From PVC group bacterium (GTDB taxonomy: Bacteria > Verrucomicrobiota > Kiritimatiellia > SLAD01): 38,186 nucleotides of DNA. A model generated the notes under the pieces. It was given only the letters and a program-made list of their open reading frames with translations, did not search any database and was not told the DNA's origin. Shown piece after piece: positions 30 to 38,186 of the stretch (its first letter is position 1; the number at the start of each line of letters is the position of its first letter). The stretch is taken from contig PWVE01000092.1 in assembly GCA_003562335.1 (NCBI GenBank), positions 1-38,186 of the forward strand, read 5' to 3'. The position numbers were made by a program, and so were the translations under genes.

Positions 30-1154
30 TCAGTAAACCGTGTAAAGCCGGTCCGGCATAATTCCGTCACGTATAGCCTCCCGCAACGCGTCGCCGGATA
101 GAGCTCTAATGGTCAGGTCCGGTAACGCTGCCTGCAGATAACGCTGCACCACCTCGTCGGTCGGCTGGCCGAAATCAGGCAGCCATAGCTGGTACCCAAC
201 CTGCAGTCCGTGCAGGTAGTTGCCATAGGCGTCAGCAGCCTTACCAGTGGCACGCGGGACCTTGATTAGTTCAATATCGTCCGGCAGTTGGTCGGCTAGG
301 AGTTGGGCCAAGGTGGCGAAATACGCCTCACTCGTTTGATCTTGATCTGCGGCTGGAGCGGCTACTAGCAACTGCGTTGGCCCGACAAAGCGAACCAGTC
401 CGGTGATCTCGCCATCCTCCTTGTTGGGCGGAACCGGCAGGAAGATGATCTGCTCAAGTCCCGTGTTTTGCCGCAGCGTTTGCTTGATGGCGTCCAGTGA
501 CAAGTGTTCGTTTTGGTGGATGACGCGGTTGGAGACCAAGGCCAGTTCCCCCCCATTATGTGCGAGTTGCGTGCCGGTCATGACCAATGGCAGGTCATGT
601 CGGCGCCCATACAGGTTGTCCGCCACCGCTTGACCGGCGGCATGATCGTCCTGGGCGCGGCGTCGCTCCCGGCCGGTAAATCGATCAGCGGCCTGGTCCG
701 GCAGCACCCGTAATAGTCGTCCCTCTTTGTCGATGCCTGCCCAGCCGGACCAGTCCTGAATCAAGACATCCTGAACCGTCGGCGTGGGTAAGTAGCGGGC
801 GGGGCGGCCAAGCGCATCCATGTCACGCGCACTGGGTGGACGCGTCGCCACCAAAGCGACATCGATCGTGGGTGGCAGCGGGCTGAGTAACGTTGTGTAG
901 AGGGGGGTGAGGTTACGTCGTCCCGAAATCCGGGCAGGCCACACCACCACCACCGGGCCGTCTAATTCCCACGCACCAACCAAACGCGCCACGGGAGCAC
1001 CGGTGGCACGCGGCTCTCCGGCCGTTGCCGGGTCTGCCGAGATGACGGTTGTGGCTATGCACACCGCAGCAGCGCCCAGCAATCGCGTTCGCCAGCGTTT
1101 AGCAGCGGGATGGGGGCGGGAGAGATGTTGGTGTTGGTGATCGATTGAGTTCAT
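30..1154 (-). CDS. Secreted pentein-fold (agmatine deiminase / peptidylarginine deiminase-like) protein, probably catalytically dead
   Basis: Start chosen at MNSIDHQHQHL, giving a signal-like hydrophobic stretch (LLGAAAVCIATTVISADPATAG). Family-like blocks: IQDWSGWAGIDKEGRLLRV, HNGGELALVSNRVIHQNEHLSLDAIKQTL, EDGEITGLVRFVGPTQLLVA, YGNYLHGLQVGYQLWLPDFGQPTDE. The upstream part of the ORF overlaps dnaE. Confidence 0.6.
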   Translation of the reverse strand: MNSIDHQHQHLSRPHPAAKRWRTRLLGAAAVCIATTVISADPATAGEPRATGAPVARLVGAWELDGPVVVVWPARISGRRNLTPLYTTLLSPLPPTIDVALVATRPPSARDMDALGRPARYLPTPTVQDVLIQDWSGWAGIDKEGRLLRVLPDQAADRFTGRERRRAQDDHAAGQAVADNLYGRRHDLPLVMTGTQLAHNGGELALVSNRVIHQNEHLSLDAIKQTLRQNTGLEQIIFLPVPPNKEDGEITGLVRFVGPTQLLVAAPAADQDQTSEAYFATLAQLLADQLPDDIELIKVPRATGKAADAYGNYLHGLQVGYQLWLPDFGQPTDEVVQRYLQAALPDLTIRALSGDALREAIRDGIMPDRLYTVY

Positions 1155-1158
1155 GGGA

Positions 1159-4100
1159 TCAGGTCCTAACTCCCTGTCCCCAACGCCGTCCACCATTGCG
1201 GGTTTGCGGGCGTTTGCAGGGGGTGCGCAGGATATCGAGATAGACGCTGTCTTCGCCCAGCACGTGTTCCAGCTTTTCAATGAGTTCCTCGCAGGGGTTC
1301 ACCCGGTAGAGGCGATCGGCGGTAATGAAAACTTTTTGTCCTTCCGGATAGATTAAGCAGCAGGTGATAGGCGTGTCGCCGGGATACTGGCGCAATATGG
1401 TCTTGAGTTGCCCGATCAACTCGTCGGTCACATGCACGTGGGTGAGGTGCAGGCTGACCCGCTGGGTGAAATGCTTGTGGATTTCCGGTAAAGAATAGAT
1501 TTCAGCCGCATGTATTTTGAGGCCCTCACCGTGTTGTATCTCGCCACAGACAAATGCGGGCGCGTTTTCCTCCAGGTAAAGTCCGTATTCCCGGTAGGTG
1601 TTGGGGAAGGCCACTACCTCAAAGGCTCCCTCCAGAGTTTCGAGCTGAAAGATGGCGAAAGGCTCCTTGCTCTTCTTGGTGAACCGCTTGTTGAGTTGTG
1701 TCACCAGCCCGCCGATCCGGGTGACGGTGCGCGCGGGCAGGGTGGCCAGGTCATTGAAACGGGCCAAGCTGAAGTGTTCAAGCGCCCAGGCATGTTCGGT
1801 CAGCGGGTGCCCGGAGATGTAGAATCCAAGCAACTCCTTTTCCGCCGCCAGCATCTGGCTACTGGGCCAAGGCGGCACTTCCGGTAGTGCTTCGGATTGT
1901 ACCGCTTTGGATTCGTCGGCCTCCGCCGGTGCGTCCAACATATCAAACAGCGATGTTTGACCGGCCTGCTGATCCTTCAATTCCGCCGCCGCGCGCTGAA
2001 TGGCAAACTCGATTCCATTGAACAGCCGTGCCCGCGACATTTTGGTGAAATCAAAAGCCCCGCTTTTGACCAAGCTTTCCACGACCTTCTTATTCACGTT
2101 TTGACCGCCCATGCGAGCACAGAAATCGACGAGCCCTTCAAAGGGGCCGTGAGTTTCGCGTTCGCGAATAATGGATTCCACGGCCCCGACCCCCACATTT
2201 TTGATGCCGGCCATGCCGAAGCGGATGCCGTCGTTTTCCGGTTTGAAGCGGACATGGCTCTCGTTGACATTGGGCGGATAGACTTCGAGCCCCATTTCCT
2301 GCGCCTCGGCGATAAACACCGGCAGCTTATCGGCGTTATTCATGTCGCAGGAACAAACCGCCGCCATGAAACAGGCGGGGTAGTGGGCTTTCAGGTAGGC
2401 GGTTTGATACGACAGGATGGCGTAGGCGGCGCTGTGGGATTTGTTAAAGCCGTAGCCGGCAAAGCGCTCAATATTGTCAAAGATACGCGCGGCTATTTTC
2501 TCCGAGATCTTATTGGTCTGTTGACATCCCTGTATGAACGCGTCGCGCTGTTTCGCCATTTCCTCCGGTCTCTTCTTGCCCATGGCCCGCCGCAGGATGT
2601 CACCTTGCCCCAAGCTAAAACCGGCCAGCGAGTTGGCCGCAAACTGTACCTGTTCCTGATAGAGCATGACCCCATAGGTCTCCTTCAGGATCGGTTCCAA
2701 AAGGGGATGATCGTATTGAATGTCGACTTTGCCGTGTTTGCGCGCAATGAAATCATCCAGCATATTCATCGGGCCCGGGCGATAAAGCGCGATCATGGCG
2801 ATTAAATCCTCGAAGCGCGACAACCCGATCCGGCGCAACAGATCCCGCATGCCCTTACTTTCCACTTGGAACACGGCCACGGTGTCGCCGCGATTGAGGA
2901 GGGCAAAAGTCTTTTCATCATCCATCGGCAAATGGGCCATATCGAGTTCCACTCCGGTGGTTTCTTTGACATGCTCCACGGCCTCTTGGATCACGGTCAG
3001 CGTCTTTAAACCGAGAAAATCGAGCTTCAACAGGCCGATCTCCTCGAGCGGCTTCATCTCGTACTGGGTCACGACCTGCTCGTCTTTATCCATAGCCAGC
3101 GGGATAAGGTTGATCAGCGGTTCATCGCCCAGGATCACGCCGGCCGCGTGGGTGCCGGGATTACGGGGATTGCCTTCGAGTATGCGGGCATACTTCATGA
3201 TTAAGGCCGCTTGTTCTTCCGTCTCGACCGTAGCTTTGAATTCAGGGTTTTCTTCCAATGCCTTTTTCAGGGTCATCTTGGGATCTTCCGGGACCATCTT
3301 GGCTAACCGGTCACAGTAGGCGAAGGGTATCTCCAGCACCCGGCCCAGATCGCGGATAACGGTTTTGGCACCCAAAGTCCCAAAAGTGATGATTTGGGCA
3401 ACCGTGTCGCGACCATACTTTTCTTTGACGTAGTCGATGACCTCCTCGCGGCGGGCCTGGCAAAAATCGATGTCGAAATCGGGCGGGGATACCCGTTCCG
3501 GGTTAAGGAACCGTTCGAAAATCAGGTTGTACTGCAGGGGGTCGATGCCGGTGATGCCCAAGGCATAGGCGACCATGCTACCGGCCCCGGATCCCCGGCC
3601 AGGCCCGACGGGGATGTGGTGTTGGCGGGCGTAGTTAATGAAGTCCCAGACCACGAGGAAATAGTTAATGAACCCGGTGGTTTCGATCACGCTAAGTTCG
3701 TGTTCATACCGTTTCCTGATTGCGACTTCCTGCTCATTGGCCGGGTTATCGACGTCTTCGATCTGATAGCGTTCCTTGAGGCCTTCCTTGATGCGCTCCT
3801 CCAAGTAGGCCTTCGGCGATTGGTCGGTGGGCACATCATACAAGGGGAAATGCAGGTCCTTGTTAAGGGCAAATTCCACATTGCAGCGTTCGGCGATGGC
3901 GACGGTATTGGTCAGGGCTTCGGGGAATTCCTTGAACAACTGCCACATTTCCTCCCCGCTTTTCATGTAGAATTCGTTGGAGGAATACCGCATGCGTTTG
4001 GGGTCGCTCATGACGGTCTGGGTTTGCAGACAGAGCATCACGTCATGCGCTTCCGCATGTTCTTTGCGCAAGTAATGCACATCGTTGGTGGCCACCAGCG

Positions 4101-4713
4101 GAATACCTGTCTTTTTGTGTATCTCGATTAAGCCAAGCAGAATGGTGCGTTGCTCCGGGATGCCGTGGTCCTGTATCTCCAGGAAGAAATTGTCCGGTCC
4201 CAGCATGTCCCGGTACAGGCCGGCCAGTTCCAGTGCCCCGTCCATGTCGCCGGCCAGGATACGTTGCGGGATTTCCCCTTTAAAGCAGGTGGAAGTGGCA
4301 ATCAGGCCCCGGCAATGCTGTGCTAGCAATTCTCGGTCAATCCGGGGTTTGTAATAGAATCCTTCCAAGTGTGCGCGTGTGATGAGATGGGTTAAGTTCC
4401 GGTAGCCTTCCTCGTTTTCGGCCAGCAGCAATTGGTGAAAGGTTTGGCCGGTTTGGCCCGGTTGCCGTTGTTTGTGGTGCATGCTGCCGTGGGCCAAATA
4501 GGCTTCGCAGCCGATGATGGGTTTGATCCCCTTGGCCTTAGCCGCTTTGTAGAACTCGATCATCCCATACATCACCCCATGATCAGACATGGCCACCGCG
4601 GTCATGCCTAACTCAGCGGCGCGATCCATGGTGGCTTCTATTTGGCACAACCCGTCCAACAAGCTGTAGGACGTATGGAAATGCAGGTGCACGAAAGGGT
4701 GAGTGGACGCCAT
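1159..4713 (-). CDS. dnaE: DNA polymerase III subunit alpha
   Basis: PHP domain start [88 protein letters not shown]. Start chosen at MASTHPF. Confidence 0.97.
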
Positions 4714-7276: not shown

Positions 7277-8148
7277 TGAGTATTCTGTTGGATAAATCGA
7301 CCAAGGTATTGGTGCAAGGAATCACCGGGCGCGATGGCGCGTTTCATACCCGGCAAATGCTCGACTACGGCACGCAAATAGTCGGCGGCGTGACGCCGGG
7401 CAAGGGCGGGCAACTGACGGATGACGGACTGCCCGTCTTCAATAGTGTCCAGGAAGCGGTGGGCGAGACCGGGGCGACCGCGTCGGTGATTTATGTTCCG
7501 GCCAGATTTGCGGCGGCCGCTGTCAGCGAGGCGGTGGAGGCCGGGATCGGGTTGGTGGTCTGCATCACCGAGGGCATTCCGGTGTTGGACATGGTGACCG
7601 TTTATCATCAGGTGGCGGCGCAAGGTGCGCGCCTGATCGGGCCCAATTGTCCCGGCATTATCTCACCCGGCAAAGCCAAGATCGGCATCATGCCCGGCGC
7701 CATTCATGAGCCGGGCCGGGTGGGCGTGATTTCCCGCAGCGGCACCTTGACGTACGAGATCGTCCACGCGCTGACCACACGGGGTATCGGCCAGTCGACC
7801 TGCATCGGGATCGGCGGGGACCCCATCGTCGGATCCAGTTTCCGTGATTTGCTGCCGTTGTTCGAGGACGACGACGAAACCGACGCCGTGGTGTTGGTCG
7901 GCGAGATCGGGGGCGACGAGGAGGAACGCACGGCGGCCTTTATTCAAGACCATATCCGCAAGCCCGTATTCGCGTATGTGGTGGGCCAGACCGCCCCGGA
8001 AGGCAAGCGTATGGGGCATGCCGGTGCCATTGTGTCCGGCAACGCCGGTACCGCGGAATCCAAGATCAAGGCCTTCGGGGCCGCCGGTGTGCCGGTAGCC
8101 GGTACCATCGACGAGCTAGCCGACACGGTTCGAGCTAAGCTCGAGTAG
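7276..8148 (+). CDS. sucD: Succinate-CoA ligase subunit alpha
   Basis: [63 protein letters not shown] active-site His. Shares one base with the sucC stop (TAATG). Confidence 0.97.
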
Positions 8149-8155
8149 GTGAAAT

Positions 8156-8992
8156 ATGACGCGTCCTGACCTAGCTGCTACGCCGAACAAAGCCAAAGGT
8201 TGTTGGACTGTGTCGCGCATTCGCAAGCAGAAAGGGGTCGCGCCGATTGCCGTACTGACGGCGTATGATGCCACGACCGCGCGCTATATGGATGAAGCTG
8301 GCATCCCGATCATTTTGGTCGGCGACTCGTTGGGCATGACGGTACTGGGCTATGAAAGCACTTTGCCTGTGACCATGGAAGACATGTGCCACCATACGCA
8401 GGCCGTGGTACGCGGGGTGCGCCAGGCGTTGGTGGTGGCGGATATGCCGTTCTTGTCCTTCCAAGTCTCCAAAAGCCAGGCCGTAGCCCATGCCGGGCGC
8501 TTGCTCAAAGTCGGCGGAGCCGCTGCGGTCAAAATAGAAGGGGGCGCCATACGGGCCGAAACGGTCCGGCACTTGGTGGCCAACGGGATACCGGTGATGG
8601 GTCACATCGGTTTGACACCGCAGAGCGTGCGCGCCATGGGGGGATACAAGGTGCAAGGACGGTCCGCAGAATCCGCCCGCGCGTTGGTGGCCGATGCCGT
8701 GGCGCTGACCGAAGCCGGTATTTTTTGTTTAGTACTGGAGGGAATACCGGCACCCTTGGCGGCTGAAATCACGCGGACGGTGAAGGTACCCACCATCGGC
8801 ATCGGGGCCGGTCCGGACTGCGATGGGCAGGTGCTGGTGGTTCACGACTGTCTGGGGCTTACGCCGTCTGCGGCCACGCCACGCTTCGTTAAGCGCTATG
8901 CCGAGGTGGGGGACACGATGCGGCAGGCGTTTGCCGCCTATAAAGACGACGTCGAAGGCCGTCGGTTCCCGGCACCAGAACATTCTTATTGA
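8156..8992 (+). CDS. panB: 3-methyl-2-oxobutanoate hydroxymethyltransferase
   Basis: VLTAYDATTARYMDEAGIPIILVGDSLGMTVLGYESTLPVT, VMGHIGLTPQSV, PTIGIGAGPDCDGQVLV. Confidence 0.96.
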   Translation: MTRPDLAATPNKAKGCWTVSRIRKQKGVAPIAVLTAYDATTARYMDEAGIPIILVGDSLGMTVLGYESTLPVTMEDMCHHTQAVVRGVRQALVVADMPFLSFQVSKSQAVAHAGRLLKVGGAAAVKIEGGAIRAETVRHLVANGIPVMGHIGLTPQSVRAMGGYKVQGRSAESARALVADAVALTEAGIFCLVLEGIPAPLAAEITRTVKVPTIGIGAGPDCDGQVLVVHDCLGLTPSAATPRFVKRYAEVGDTMRQAFAAYKDDVEGRRFPAPEHSY

Positions 8993-9075
8993 TCCCACGT
9001 GATGTAAATATGGCGGAAAATCTTGCGTCAGCAGCTGTAGTTGGTAGTATGCGCTAAGTTGTGTGGGTGCCACGC

Positions 9076-9162
9076 GCTCGGGTGGCGGAATGGCAGACGC
9101 GCTAGGTTGAGGGCCTAGTGACCGATTAGGTCGTGCGGGTTCGACTCCCGCCCCGAGCACCA
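9076..9162 (+). tRNA. tRNA-Leu(GAG)
   Basis: Acceptor GCTCGGG/CCCGAGC, anticodon stem CTAGG-TTGAGGG-CCTAG, T arm GCGGGTTCGACTCCCGC, variable arm present, encoded CCA. Confidence 0.95.
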
Positions 9163-9354
9163 CGGACAGCACCCCATCCATTTTTGCGAGACATTCGCAG
9201 AAATGGGACATCAGGGCCGCTCCGCGCCGGGTACAGCGCGACATGTCCGATTTCTGTGCTTCGTCATTTTCCCACTGCTTTACGCGTTATGTGAAGCATC
9301 TGTGATAGCTCGCTTCATATTTTTTCCTCATTGCCGCAAAGTATGGAATAATTT

Positions 9355-33870: not shown

Positions 33871-34119
33871 ATGAATAATTCATTGGTGTTTGTACGTCCA
33901 GTGAGTCGTCGGGGGCAAGTGGTGCTGCCCAAGGATATTCGCTCGCATCTTGGAGTAAAAAACGAGGTTGTTTTTGAGGTCCACGGTGATCGTGTGGAGA
34001 TTCGTCCATCGGCTGCTGGCTTTTTAGATGAATTTCTCAGTCTGCCTCGTCAGTCGGCCGGACCTGACCCGAAGCAATTGAAGCATCTCATGGAAGACCG
34101 ACATGCTGAGCTACATTGA
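33871..34119 (+). CDS. vapB: AbrB-fold antitoxin (VapB-like)
   Basis: VRPVSRRGQVVLPKDIRSHLGVKNEVVFEVHGDRVEIRPS (SpoVT/AbrB). Confidence 0.88.
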   Translation: MNNSLVFVRPVSRRGQVVLPKDIRSHLGVKNEVVFEVHGDRVEIRPSAAGFLDEFLSLPRQSAGPDPKQLKHLMEDRHAELH

Positions 34120-34507
34120 TTCGAACATTTTCCTGTATGCGGTTCTCTATGACGATGAGCGTGCGGCACGATGTCGCAACGTGCTTTCTGAGATTGTGGA
34201 TGGCAAACTGGACGCTGTAACTAGCGTGTTGACGTGGGATGAATTCACGCATGTGGTGGAGAAGGTGTTGGATCGGCCTTCCGGTTTAATTCAAGGGGAG
34301 CGTTTTCTTCATTTCCCCCGCCTATTATTCCAGCCCTGCACAACCGACGTGCTGATCCGCGCTCAACAGGTACGCGCCTCCACATCTCTGGGCGCCCGTG
34401 ACAGTGTTCATGCCGCCAGTGCGCTGATTGCCAGGGCGGGAACGCTGGTTTCTGAGGATCGCGATTTTGACGAGATCCCGGATTTGAATCGTCGATCCGC
34501 AGGATGA
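34103..34507 (+). CDS. vapC: PIN-domain toxin (VapC-like)
   Basis: MLSYIDSNIFLYAVLYDDERAARC, TSVLTWDEFTHVVEKVL, LGARDSVHAASAL, LVSEDRDFDEIPDL. Overlaps vapB. Confidence 0.9.
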   Translation: MLSYIDSNIFLYAVLYDDERAARCRNVLSEIVDGKLDAVTSVLTWDEFTHVVEKVLDRPSGLIQGERFLHFPRLLFQPCTTDVLIRAQQVRASTSLGARDSVHAASALIARAGTLVSEDRDFDEIPDLNRRSAG

Positions 34508-34751: not shown

Positions 34752-36311
34752 ATGGCGAAAAAGAACGAAAAGGGGAAATCTCTGGAATCCTGGATTTGGG
34801 ATGCGGCGTGCTCAATCCGCGGCGCGAAAGATGCGCCAAAGTACAAGGATTTTATCCTGCCGCTGATCTTTACCAAGCGGCTCTGCGATGTTTTCGATGA
34901 CGAGATCAACCGGATCGCGGCCGAAGTCGGTTCACGCAAGAAGGCCTTCCAACTCGTCAAAGCCGATCACAAACTGGTGCGCTTCTACTTGCCCCTGCTG
35001 CCGGAAGACCCGGAAGAACCCGTCTGGTCCACCATCCGCAAACTCGCCGACCAGATCGGGGAAGGCGTTACCACCCGCATGCGCGCGATTGCCAAGCAAA
35101 ACCCCAGCCTGCAGGGGATCATTGATCGAGTCGACTTCAACGCCACCACCCATGGCCAGCGGGATATAGATGACGACCGACTCTCCAACCTGATCGAGGC
35201 CATCAGTACCAAACGCCTCGGCCTCGAAGACGTCGAAGCCGATATCATCGGCAAAAGCTACGAATACCTCATCCGCAAGTTTGCCGAGGGCGGCGGACAA
35301 AGCGCTGGCGAGTTTTACACCCCGCCGGAAGTCGGCACCATTATGTCGAAAGTGCTCCAGCCGGAGCCCGGCATGGAGGTCTATGACCCGGCCTGCGGGT
35401 CCGGCGGTCTGCTCATTAAGTGCGAGATCGCCATGGAAGAGTCAGCCAAAGGCAGAAAACGCACCGTCGCCCCGCTCAAACTCTATGGCCAGGAATACAT
35501 CGCCGACACGTGGGCCATGGCCAACATGAATATGATTATCCATGACATGGAAGGCGAAATCGAGATTGGTGATACCTTTAAAAACCCCAAATTCCGCAGC
35601 AAACAAGGCAAGCTCCGCACGTTCGACCGTGTCGTCGCCAATCCAATGTGGAATCAGGACTGGTTCACCGAAGCCGACTATGACAATGACGAACTCGACC
35701 GCTTTCCCGCCGGGGCCGGTTTCCCCGGCAAATCCTCCGCCGACTGGGGCTGGGTCCAGCACATGCACGCCAGTTTAGGTGCAAAAGGCCGTGCCGCCGT
35801 GGTGCTGGACACCGGCGCCGCCTCGCGCGGATCGGGCAATGCCGGCACCAACAAGGAAAAAACCGTCCGCCAATGGTTCGTTGATCATGACTTGATCGAA
35901 AGCGTCCTCTACCTGCCCGAAAACCTCTTCTACAACACCACAGCCCCAGGCATCGTGTTGTTTCTGAACAAGGCAAAAGCAAAAGCGCGCAAGGGCAAGG
36001 TGTTGTTGGTCAACGCCAGCCAGATTTTTGAAAAAGGCGACCCCAAAAACTTCATCCCGGACGCTGGCATCCAGCGCATCGCCGATGTCCTGATTGGTTG
36101 GAAGGAAGAGGACAAGCTCAGTCGTATGGTGGACCATGCCGAGTTGCAAAAAAACGACTACAACATCTCGCCTAGCCGCTACATCCACACCAGCGACGCC
36201 GAAACCTACCGCCCCATCGCCGAGATTGTCGAGGAATTGAAGGTGATTGAGGCGGAAGCGAAGGCAACGGATAAGGCGCTGCGAAAGATTCTGAAACAAT
36301 TGGGGGTTTAA
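34752..36311 (+). CDS. hsdM: Type I restriction-modification methyltransferase subunit
   Basis: SLESWIWDAACSIRGAKDAPKYKDFILPLIFTKRLCD, GEFYTPPEVGTIMSKVL, VYDPACGSGGLLI, GQEYIADTWAMANMNMIIH, VVANPMWNQDWF. Confidence 0.96.
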   Translation: MAKKNEKGKSLESWIWDAACSIRGAKDAPKYKDFILPLIFTKRLCDVFDDEINRIAAEVGSRKKAFQLVKADHKLVRFYLPLLPEDPEEPVWSTIRKLADQIGEGVTTRMRAIAKQNPSLQGIIDRVDFNATTHGQRDIDDDRLSNLIEAISTKRLGLEDVEADIIGKSYEYLIRKFAEGGGQSAGEFYTPPEVGTIMSKVLQPEPGMEVYDPACGSGGLLIKCEIAMEESAKGRKRTVAPLKLYGQEYIADTWAMANMNMIIHDMEGEIEIGDTFKNPKFRSKQGKLRTFDRVVANPMWNQDWFTEADYDNDELDRFPAGAGFPGKSSADWGWVQHMHASLGAKGRAAVVLDTGAASRGSGNAGTNKEKTVRQWFVDHDLIESVLYLPENLFYNTTAPGIVLFLNKAKAKARKGKVLLVNASQIFEKGDPKNFIPDAGIQRIADVLIGWKEEDKLSRMVDHAELQKNDYNISPSRYIHTSDAETYRPIAEIVEELKVIEAEAKATDKALRKILKQLGV

Positions 36312-36356
36312 CCGCAGGTGACACAGAAAACCACAGATTCAGAGACCTCACGACCG

Positions 36357-36383
36357 GAGCGCGGACTTTCTGGTCCGCAGCGG
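36357..36383. repeat. Short palindromic repeat, copy 1
   Basis: GAGCGCGGACTTTCTGGTCCGCAGCGG, with GCGGAC/GTCCGC stem. Confidence 0.6.
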
Positions 36384-36409
36384 CTCAGGGTTAACGGTTT
36401 CACATATAT

Positions 36410-36856
36410 ATGAAATATTCTGTTGACATCGCCCTGACTACGATACATATTGGTCGGCATCACCGGGTGGTCACGCTTGGATTGAATGGCCAGGACCCGG
36501 CGGAAGAATATCTGAATGAACTTGAAGAAAAGGATGCCAGGGCATTTGGCAAAATACAGGCTCGGCTCAAATTCGTTGCTGATCTGGATCGCTATGAAAA
36601 CAAAGTAGCATTCAGGTCACTGGGGGAAGGTTTGTTTGAGGCCAAGATAAAAACACCTTTTGCTGTCCGCGTTTACGTGTTTTATGACCGTAAGACACTC
36701 GGTGAGGAATCGATGATCATAGCGGCACACGGAGGGGGAAAATCCTCACAACAGAAAGATATTAGGACGGCGAGAAAGCGGCAAGAACAGTATACGACGG
36801 CACTGAAAGAACAAGACACCACGCTCACTTTAATTAAGGCTAAAAATGAAGATTAA
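36410..36856 (+). CDS. higB: HigB / Gp49-like RelE-superfamily toxin
   Basis: DPAEEYLNELEEKDARAFGKIQARLKFVADL, GEGLFEAKIKTPFAVRVYVFYDRK, MIIAAHGGGKSSQQKDIRTARKRQEQYTT. Confidence 0.8.
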   Translation: MKYSVDIALTTIHIGRHHRVVTLGLNGQDPAEEYLNELEEKDARAFGKIQARLKFVADLDRYENKVAFRSLGEGLFEAKIKTPFAVRVYVFYDRKTLGEESMIIAAHGGGKSSQQKDIRTARKRQEQYTTALKEQDTTLTLIKAKNED

Positions 36857-37289
36857 TAGAATTAAAGCTAATAACCCGCTGTCGCAAAAGGTCGCAAAGG
36901 CGCTTCAATCTGTTGAGGCAGAAGTTGAATACCGCAAACTGATGGTTGTCGAAGAGCTGCTTCAATTCATGAAGCGGAAAGGCGTAAACAAATCTGAGTT
37001 GGCTGCACGCATGGGCATTCAGCCCTCCCGGGTCACGGCGATGCTCGCCGGAGACAGCAACTTAACCATTGAGACATTGGTGCGGGCTGGGCGTGCCGTG
37101 GGTGCCAGCTTGCAGCAAACCTATGTGCCTGCTGGACAGATTGGCCACTGGGTTCATTACAACAAGATTCGTTCAAAGGGTCGCACCGCTCTCGTCGTGG
37201 ATTTCCAGCCCAAAAAGATTCAGCTTGCCCAAAACCCACAACCGATTTCAAAACAAAGAGCCCAATACGATGCCGAAGACGCCGCTTAA
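36846..37289 (+). CDS. higA: HigA-like XRE antitoxin with C-terminal extension
   Basis: HTH VVEELLQFMKRKGVNKSELAARMGIQPSRVTAMLAGDSNLTIETLVRAGRAVG, then a ~55-residue tail. Overlaps higB by 11 nt. Confidence 0.85.
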   Translation: MKINRIKANNPLSQKVAKALQSVEAEVEYRKLMVVEELLQFMKRKGVNKSELAARMGIQPSRVTAMLAGDSNLTIETLVRAGRAVGASLQQTYVPAGQIGHWVHYNKIRSKGRTALVVDFQPKKIQLAQNPQPISKQRAQYDAEDAA

Positions 37290-37698
37290 AGTTTCCCCAC
37301 TGGATGTGTTGACCCAGGAGTTCCTCGCGATCTCCATCGAAGCCACGCCCGGCGAAGAATTCGGAGCGGGCCGGATCGAAGTGGAGCGCAAGTTGGTGGG
37401 GGATAATGCCGAGACCGATGAATGGACGCTTTATCTGACGGTTGAAATTAGCGGTTCTGATGGGAGGGCATCTCCTCCCTATACAGGCCATGTTACTGCT
37501 AGAGGCGTCTACACGGTACATCCGGACTACCCTCAGGATCCCGAACGTCTCATTCGCATCACGGCCGCCTCTATGCTTTATGGGGCAGTGCGCGAACTCG
37601 TCAGCAGCTTCACCGCTCGCGGCCCGAACGGCATGATCACATTGCCTTCGCTTTCCTTCTACGAAAAACCACCCAAACCAAAGAAAAAGGCAGGTTGA
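37270..37698 (+). CDS. SecB-like chaperone (TAC-type)
   Basis: TLYLTVEISGSDGRASPPYTGHVTARGVYTVHPDYPQDPERLIRITAASMLYGAVRELVSSFTARGPNGMITLPSLSFYE aligns by eye with the SecB core (..ILFPYARE.I..M.SRG.FP.L.L.PVNF). Overlaps higA by 20 nt. Confidence 0.75.
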   Translation: MPKTPLKVSPLDVLTQEFLAISIEATPGEEFGAGRIEVERKLVGDNAETDEWTLYLTVEISGSDGRASPPYTGHVTARGVYTVHPDYPQDPERLIRITAASMLYGAVRELVSSFTARGPNGMITLPSLSFYEKPPKPKKKAG

Positions 37699-37771
37699 AG
37701 CAGTGTCGGCCTCGTGAAATACGCAAACGATGCGGGAAAGAAACTGGATATGAGTGCCCCCCCTAACGGCG

Positions 37772-37821
37772 GGCGGACATCGGGACCGCCGGAGCCTCGG
37801 CGAAGGAGGTTCCTGTCCGCC
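37772..37821. repeat. Intergenic palindromic element
   Basis: GGCGGACA (37772-37779) / TGTCCGCC (37814-37821) enclosing GCCG-GAGCCT-CGGC. Confidence 0.6.
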
Positions 37822-37860
37822 GACAAGGCCGGGTGGGTTGGAAAAAGCGCCATCGTAACG

Positions 37861-37884
37861 GAGTGTGGACTTTCCAGTCCGCGG
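37861..37884. repeat. Short palindromic repeat, copy 2
   Basis: GAGTGTGGACTTTCCAGTCCGCGG, homologous to the 36357 copy; stem GGACT-TTCC-AGTCC. Confidence 0.6.
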
Positions 37885-37958
37885 TCATCAAAGAATGGTG
37901 GGTTATCCCGCAACTGCGGGACGCCCTTCTGCATGGCGGTGCTGGAGGAGGGCAGGGC

Positions 37959-38186
37959 ATGAGTGCGCTCCTTGAAAATCTTCCTGAAGACTGGAAACAA
38001 ACATCGCTGGGTGAGATCAATTTGCACAAATCGCCGACATTGAACCCCAAACAGTTCCCAGAGGAGACCTTCGAATATTACAGTATTCCCGACTATCAGC
38101 GCGATCAACGCCCTAGCCTTACGAAAGGCGGAGCGATTGAAAGCTCCAAGTTGCTTCTTCAACCCAAGACCGTGCTTTTCGGTAAA
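37959..38186 (+). CDS. hsdS: Type I RM specificity subunit, 3' truncated by window end
   Basis: Manual translation MSALLENLPEDWKQTSLGEINLHKSPTLNPKQFPEETFEYYSIPDYQRDQRPSLTKGGAIESSKLLLQPKTVLFGK, a typical HsdS TRD start. Not in the ORF track because no stop is reached. Confidence 0.88.
   Translation, partial: MSALLENLPEDWKQTSLGEINLHKSPTLNPKQFPEETFEYYSIPDYQRDQRPSLTKGGAIESSKLLLQPKTVLFGK

Follow-up and report, generated by a model that had tools for sequence, protein, structure and literature searches.

We analysed a stretch of 38,186 bp (the window), which is the complete contig C196 of a Verrucomicrobiota metagenome-assembled genome (MAG; 242 contigs, 2.66 Mb, ~94% completeness), and describe here a toxin-antitoxin-chaperone (TAC) operon that lies inside its type I restriction-modification (RM) locus. 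At 34752–36311 on the forward strand is hsdM, encoding a methyltransferase subunit of 519 amino acids (N6_Mtase 2.6e-90, HsdM_N 5.1e-20; 89% identical orthologue in genome G346). It is followed on the same strand by genes for a toxin of HigB/RelE fold (36410–36856, 148 amino acids), an Xre/HigA-like antitoxin (36846–37289, 147 amino acids) and a SecB-like TAC chaperone (37270–37698, 142 amino acids), with overlaps of 11 nt between toxin and antitoxin and 20 nt between antitoxin and chaperone. Beyond them hsdS begins with an ATG at 37959 and runs for 76 codons up to the contig end (37959–38186; PADLOC Specificity_I 2.4e-6). As the window is the whole contig, most of hsdS and all of hsdR fall outside it. 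The positions and neighbours given for these genes in an initial annotation (hsdM, three overlapping co-directional open reading frames (ORFs) and the start of hsdS) proved exact. GC content is 44–47% in the toxin gene versus 53–61% in the hsdM region before it. An Rfam search gave no match, and a promoter and terminator scan gave signal at chance level. A second toxin-antitoxin (TA) module flanks the RM locus directly upstream of hsdM, consisting of a MazE-like antitoxin (33871–34119) and a PIN-domain toxin (34103–34507).

Searched as single sequences, the toxin and the chaperone gave weak matches, to TIGR02683 (5.5e-9, below cut-off) and to Pfam SecB (E = 0.013, below gathering) respectively, and the antitoxin matched HTH_3 (1.9e-6). 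Profiles built from relatives matched solved structures: that of the toxin relatives (A6) the HigB toxin 6af3 at 4.5e-5, and that of the chaperone relatives (A1) the E. coli SecB 1qyn at 6.8e-6, while the antitoxin profile search returned the HigA-type antitoxin structures 3trb and 3cec. AlphaFold models of the chaperone and toxin had a mean predicted local distance difference test score (pLDDT) of 87.5 and 86.8. The best Foldseek match of the toxin was the S. pneumoniae HigBA (6af4, probability 1.00, E = 5e-3). The best matches of the chaperone were all SecB, including E. coli SecB (1qyn) and M. tuberculosis Rv1957 bound to the HigA1 ChAD peptide (5mtw), at template modelling (TM) scores of ~0.6–0.68, none higher, and with 16–17% sequence identity in the structural alignment. 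Given these profile matches and folds, the HigB-HigA-SecB naming is sound. Profiles, folds and gene order together bear out what had been proposed at the outset, a TAC of HigB-HigA-SecB type, ordered as in M. tuberculosis, within a type I RM locus, and the SecB fold expected of 37270–37698 was recovered by both AlphaFold and Foldseek. The helix-turn-helix (HTH) domain of the antitoxin occupies residues 40–89 of 147 and resembles PDC-M64 in a PADLOC scan, a name that we did not find in the open-access literature. About 55 more residues follow it, with W102 invariant in the antitoxin alignment, and residues 95–147 (37128–37286) form a putative ChAD with a degron-like end.

The three genes are conserved together elsewhere at ~40–59% identity (L064, L065), which rules out chance ORFs and indicates that all three are real genes. 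Using the A1 profile, made from seven chaperones, we scanned 390 genomes of the phylum Verrucomicrobiota and recovered 28 other chaperone relatives in 25 genomes, the window's own among them; single-protein scans gave no relative among genome contigs and one among viral contigs. Every operon that could be read around these relatives was a toxin-antitoxin-chaperone trio. Since the chaperone relatives sit in TA operons, an ordinary export SecB could be ruled out. Several TAC types were found, namely RelE/Xre, a second Xre/MqsA-like type, HicA-HicB (L044, assigned by eye) and CmdT-like (L062). The last of these trios (G205:C4, ~7980–9318, minus strand) resembles CmdTAC: its toxin is ADP-ribosyltransferase-like (weak PD-T4-9_A match), its antitoxin ends in LALAA, and phage terminase-like genes are nearby. 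A TAC trio near a terminase-like gene was also present on a viral contig (L006). Close relatives of the window chaperone (~51–55% identity) occur in Coraliomargarita, a PVC-group MAG, Opitutales and a Spirochaetaceae MAG, and this distribution suggests horizontal transfer of the window TAC subtype. One window-type TAC was found decayed (L060, G382:C74, 7956–8309), with antitoxin and chaperone pieces fused in one short ORF.

The window antitoxin ends in ...QYDAEDAA, and such endings recur among TAC antitoxins. In a non-redundant set of 30, an AA end was present in 16 and an A end in 23, compared with an AA end in 0 of 29 toxins and 0 of 29 chaperones of the same operons and in 4% of neighbouring ORFs taken as background (P about 3e-12). 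Among the 12 readable ordinary HigA antitoxins of the same phylum only one had this end (P = 0.007 against the TAC set). A simple ORF caller set the gene starts, and the C-termini are independent of start calls. In M. tuberculosis, HigA1 displays chaperone addiction (PMC5105189) and carries a C-terminal ClpX degron that is shielded by the chaperone (PMC8165232; for further TAC biology see PMC4257090). The recurrent ssrA-like AA end fits this scheme, in which the chaperone would shield a ClpX degron on the antitoxin. Its presence across several TAC families of one phylum would extend the mechanism reported for HigA1, and a two-residue change would put chaperone-masked degrons to a direct test.

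A search with the window HsdM, followed by reading of the loci of its relatives (~49–89% HsdM identity), showed that the hsdM-hsdS slot is variable and that the TAC is one of several cargos. The slot holds a TIR-domain protein in G346 (HsdM 89%), RhuM in G193 (74%), a DUF4062/HATPase_c_4 protein in G295 (68–77%, hsdM broken) and a DUF1016 fragment in G022 (55%). In G031 (54%) an MNT-HepT pair follows hsdM and the contig ends before hsdS, and in G323, G282 and G312 (49–55%) the slot is empty, with hsdS directly after hsdM. Among the loci read, none other had a TAC in this slot. Recurrence of the arrangement, one of three points on which the initial annotation had made its proposal depend, was therefore only partial: the exact order hsdM-TAC-hsdS was found here alone, while other effectors fill the slot in relatives and a TAC lies directly 3' of hsdS in three genomes (hsdR-hsdM-hsdS-TAC in L048, hsdM-hsdS-TAC in L058 and hsdR-DUF1016-hsdS-TAC-AAA in L041).

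Contig C194 of the window's own genome holds an HsdR whose family is the one found with this HsdM lineage (43–64% to L099 and L101–L103), without a match to the HsdRs of L041 or L048. This hsdR probably belongs to the window RM locus. On the contig (L157, G000:C194) an Mrr-like gene (113–1045) overlaps hsdR (978–3986), and a small YgjP/M48-like metalloprotease gene (3991–4296) lies downstream (Mrr-like and YgjP/M48-like assigned by eye). In the same-family genome G004, a HipBA-like pair is found upstream of an hsdR 95% identical to that of C194.

The TAC is bracketed by two copies of a palindromic repeat, GCGGACTTTCTGGTCCGC, the first at 36361–36378, 32 nt 5' of the toxin start, and the second at 37865–37882, 77 nt 5' of hsdS. 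A repeat search of the own genome placed GCGGACTTTCYRGTCCGC, within one mismatch, at these two sites only, and a third copy with two mismatches lies inside the C194 hsdR gene. The palindrome is REP-like (repetitive extragenic palindrome) in other Verrucomicrobiota, with 21 exact copies in G253. Seven exact copies in G004 (L146, G004:C46) are all on one contig within 3.5 kb, at or inside the hsdR ORF, which stays open across them. A function as HigA operators is disfavoured by the scattering of the element over other genomes and by its presence within an hsdR ORF; the palindromes may mark how sequence entered these loci.

Our preferred interpretation, which we hold to be probable, is that the trio is a HigBA-type TAC serving as a phage-sensing abortive-infection module, which a horizontally moving type I RM locus carries as cargo in its hsdM-hsdS interval. 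We directly observed the identity, folds and order of the genes, that they are conserved together, that the antitoxin ends are degron-like and that the content of the cargo slot varies. Abortive infection is proposed on the model of two E. coli systems, CmdTAC and MqsRAC. In CmdTAC the T4 capsid protein is the trigger, taking up the chaperone so that the antitoxin CmdA is lost via ClpP (PMC11618068), and MqsRAC protects against T2 (PMC9519451). The window TAC would then most likely serve as a second line of defence in which phage triggers growth arrest, a role made likely by its slot, which in relatives houses other genes for killing or defence. In such a scheme the antitoxin would block the RelE/HigB-like toxin until an unfolded phage protein (e.g. 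the major capsid protein) draws the chaperone away from it. ClpXP would then remove the antitoxin, and the freed toxin would cleave translated mRNA, stopping growth before phage release. The TAC would act second, behind restriction, and sensing of the RM enzyme itself would not be required. Chaperone dependence, antitoxin degradation, toxicity and the phage trigger are all borrowed, in this proposal, from the TAC literature.

Some of our results weigh against it. Toxicity, neutralisation and a phage effect are ascribed to the window TAC by analogy, and in M. tuberculosis the TAC has been linked with general stress, not with phage. The window chaperone has no match to the PADLOC CmdC model, which three of seven chaperone relatives do match (to 1.1e-10). 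Close relatives of its subtype (at least 50% identity) are found outside RM operons, the exact gene order was seen in one MAG only, and hsdR is not linked to the locus on the window contig.

The TAC might instead be an addiction or stabilising element that makes loss of the RM locus lethal, its main effect being to keep the locus and not to fight phage. The locus does look mobile, as its HsdM is 89% identical to that of a genome outside the window's class (G346) and absent from sampled same-family genomes, and other TA pairs keep it company, MazE-PIN directly upstream of hsdM here and MNT-HepT after hsdM in an orthologous locus. We nevertheless think this unlikely, for TIR, RhuM and DUF4062 genes, none of them a classic addiction module, are found in the slot just as well, and a chaperone-dependent antitoxin would be a complicated build for plain addiction. 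Comparably tentative is the broader idea that in this RM lineage the hsdM-hsdS interval serves as a bay in which cell-suicide or effector modules can be exchanged as cargo, over which the hsd operon would exert common control, restriction and abortive infection being expressed or triggered as one programme; the locus lets one ask whether shared transcription coordinates the two.

Defence genes also adjoin other TACs. In addition to those behind hsdS, one TAC stands between a PLD-helicase and a type ISP enzyme (L055) and another belongs to a DUF1156/KAP/DUF499-HEPN cluster (L059; DUF1156 and KAP named by eye). TACs also precede GmrSD (L053) and a STAND NTPase (L052) and follow an MmeI-like gene (L011). 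In L007 (NZ_CP020372.1, 8835–15650), a Thiodictyon plasmid, an MqsA-type TAC directly precedes the DISARM gene drmA, and a DNA methyltransferase lies upstream. With the window left out, 4 of 26 TACs had an N6 methylase on their own strand no more than 5 kb away (0.15 expected, P = 2e-5). The control, ordinary HigA loci of the same phylum, gave 4 of 45 (0.25 expected, P = 1.3e-4), and because the two kinds of locus do not differ (Fisher P = 0.32), a TAC-specific attraction to RM genes is unsupported and TA-RM clustering is general in this phylum. The same comparison speaks against a true guard of the RM enzyme, in which failed or inhibited restriction or methylation (e.g. by an Ocr-like anti-restriction protein) would trigger the toxin in the manner of PrrC in EcoprrI, the precedent for an effector guarding a restriction enzyme. 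The position within the hsd operon and the different effectors sharing one slot would suit such a guard, but no contact partner or sensing element for HsdM, HsdS or HsdR was found and same-kind TACs lack an RM operon in most genomes, leaving it improbable. Equally doubtful is a general stress-responsive growth regulator of the M. tuberculosis style, in a defence locus by chance, to which Rv1957 as the closest solved chaperone homologue besides E. coli SecB and the free-standing members in Coraliomargarita and other PVC bacteria would point; recurring defence-gene neighbourhoods and the phage defence published for CmdTAC and MqsRAC speak against it.

Returning to a phage-sensing TAC carried as RM cargo, its components are familiar: SecB-dependent TACs are already known as phage sensors, as are TA systems inside RM operons. 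We found no published TAC between hsdM and hsdS in the open-access literature, and the window locus, with a genuine HigBA-type TAC inside a type I RM locus, puts known parts into a new arrangement. PrrC of EcoprrI and the restriction-linked ORFs of type I RM loci share with it an effector gene within the hsd operon; PrrC, however, consists of one anticodon nuclease, which the Hsd complex regulates, a link of which no sign was seen for the window TAC. DarTG2 in the type I RM system of enteropathogenic E. coli (EPEC), in the RRDM island, lies between hsdS and hsdR together with the RptR repressor (PMC12255303), whereas the window TAC lies between hsdM and hsdS. CmdTAC (PD-T4-9) and MqsRAC share the SecB-like chaperone as third gene. 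Their chaperone-dependent antitoxin (CmdA being protected from ClpP) and phage defence would apply here by analogy. They differ in their toxins, CmdT being an ADP-ribosyltransferase and MqsR another toxin, while the window toxin has the HigB fold and its chaperone lacks a CmdC match; with that fold, and without a PADLOC PD-T4-9_A match, the window TAC is not a member of CmdTAC. The M. tuberculosis TAC (HigB1-HigA1-SecB-TA, Rv1955-Rv1956-Rv1957) differs in that the window TAC sits inside a type I RM operon, has a chaperone of low identity (16–17%) and has a function assigned by analogy. The two have in common the gene order, a HigB/RelE-fold toxin, a SecB-fold chaperone and an Xre antitoxin with a C-terminal extension and a small hydrophobic C-terminal end.

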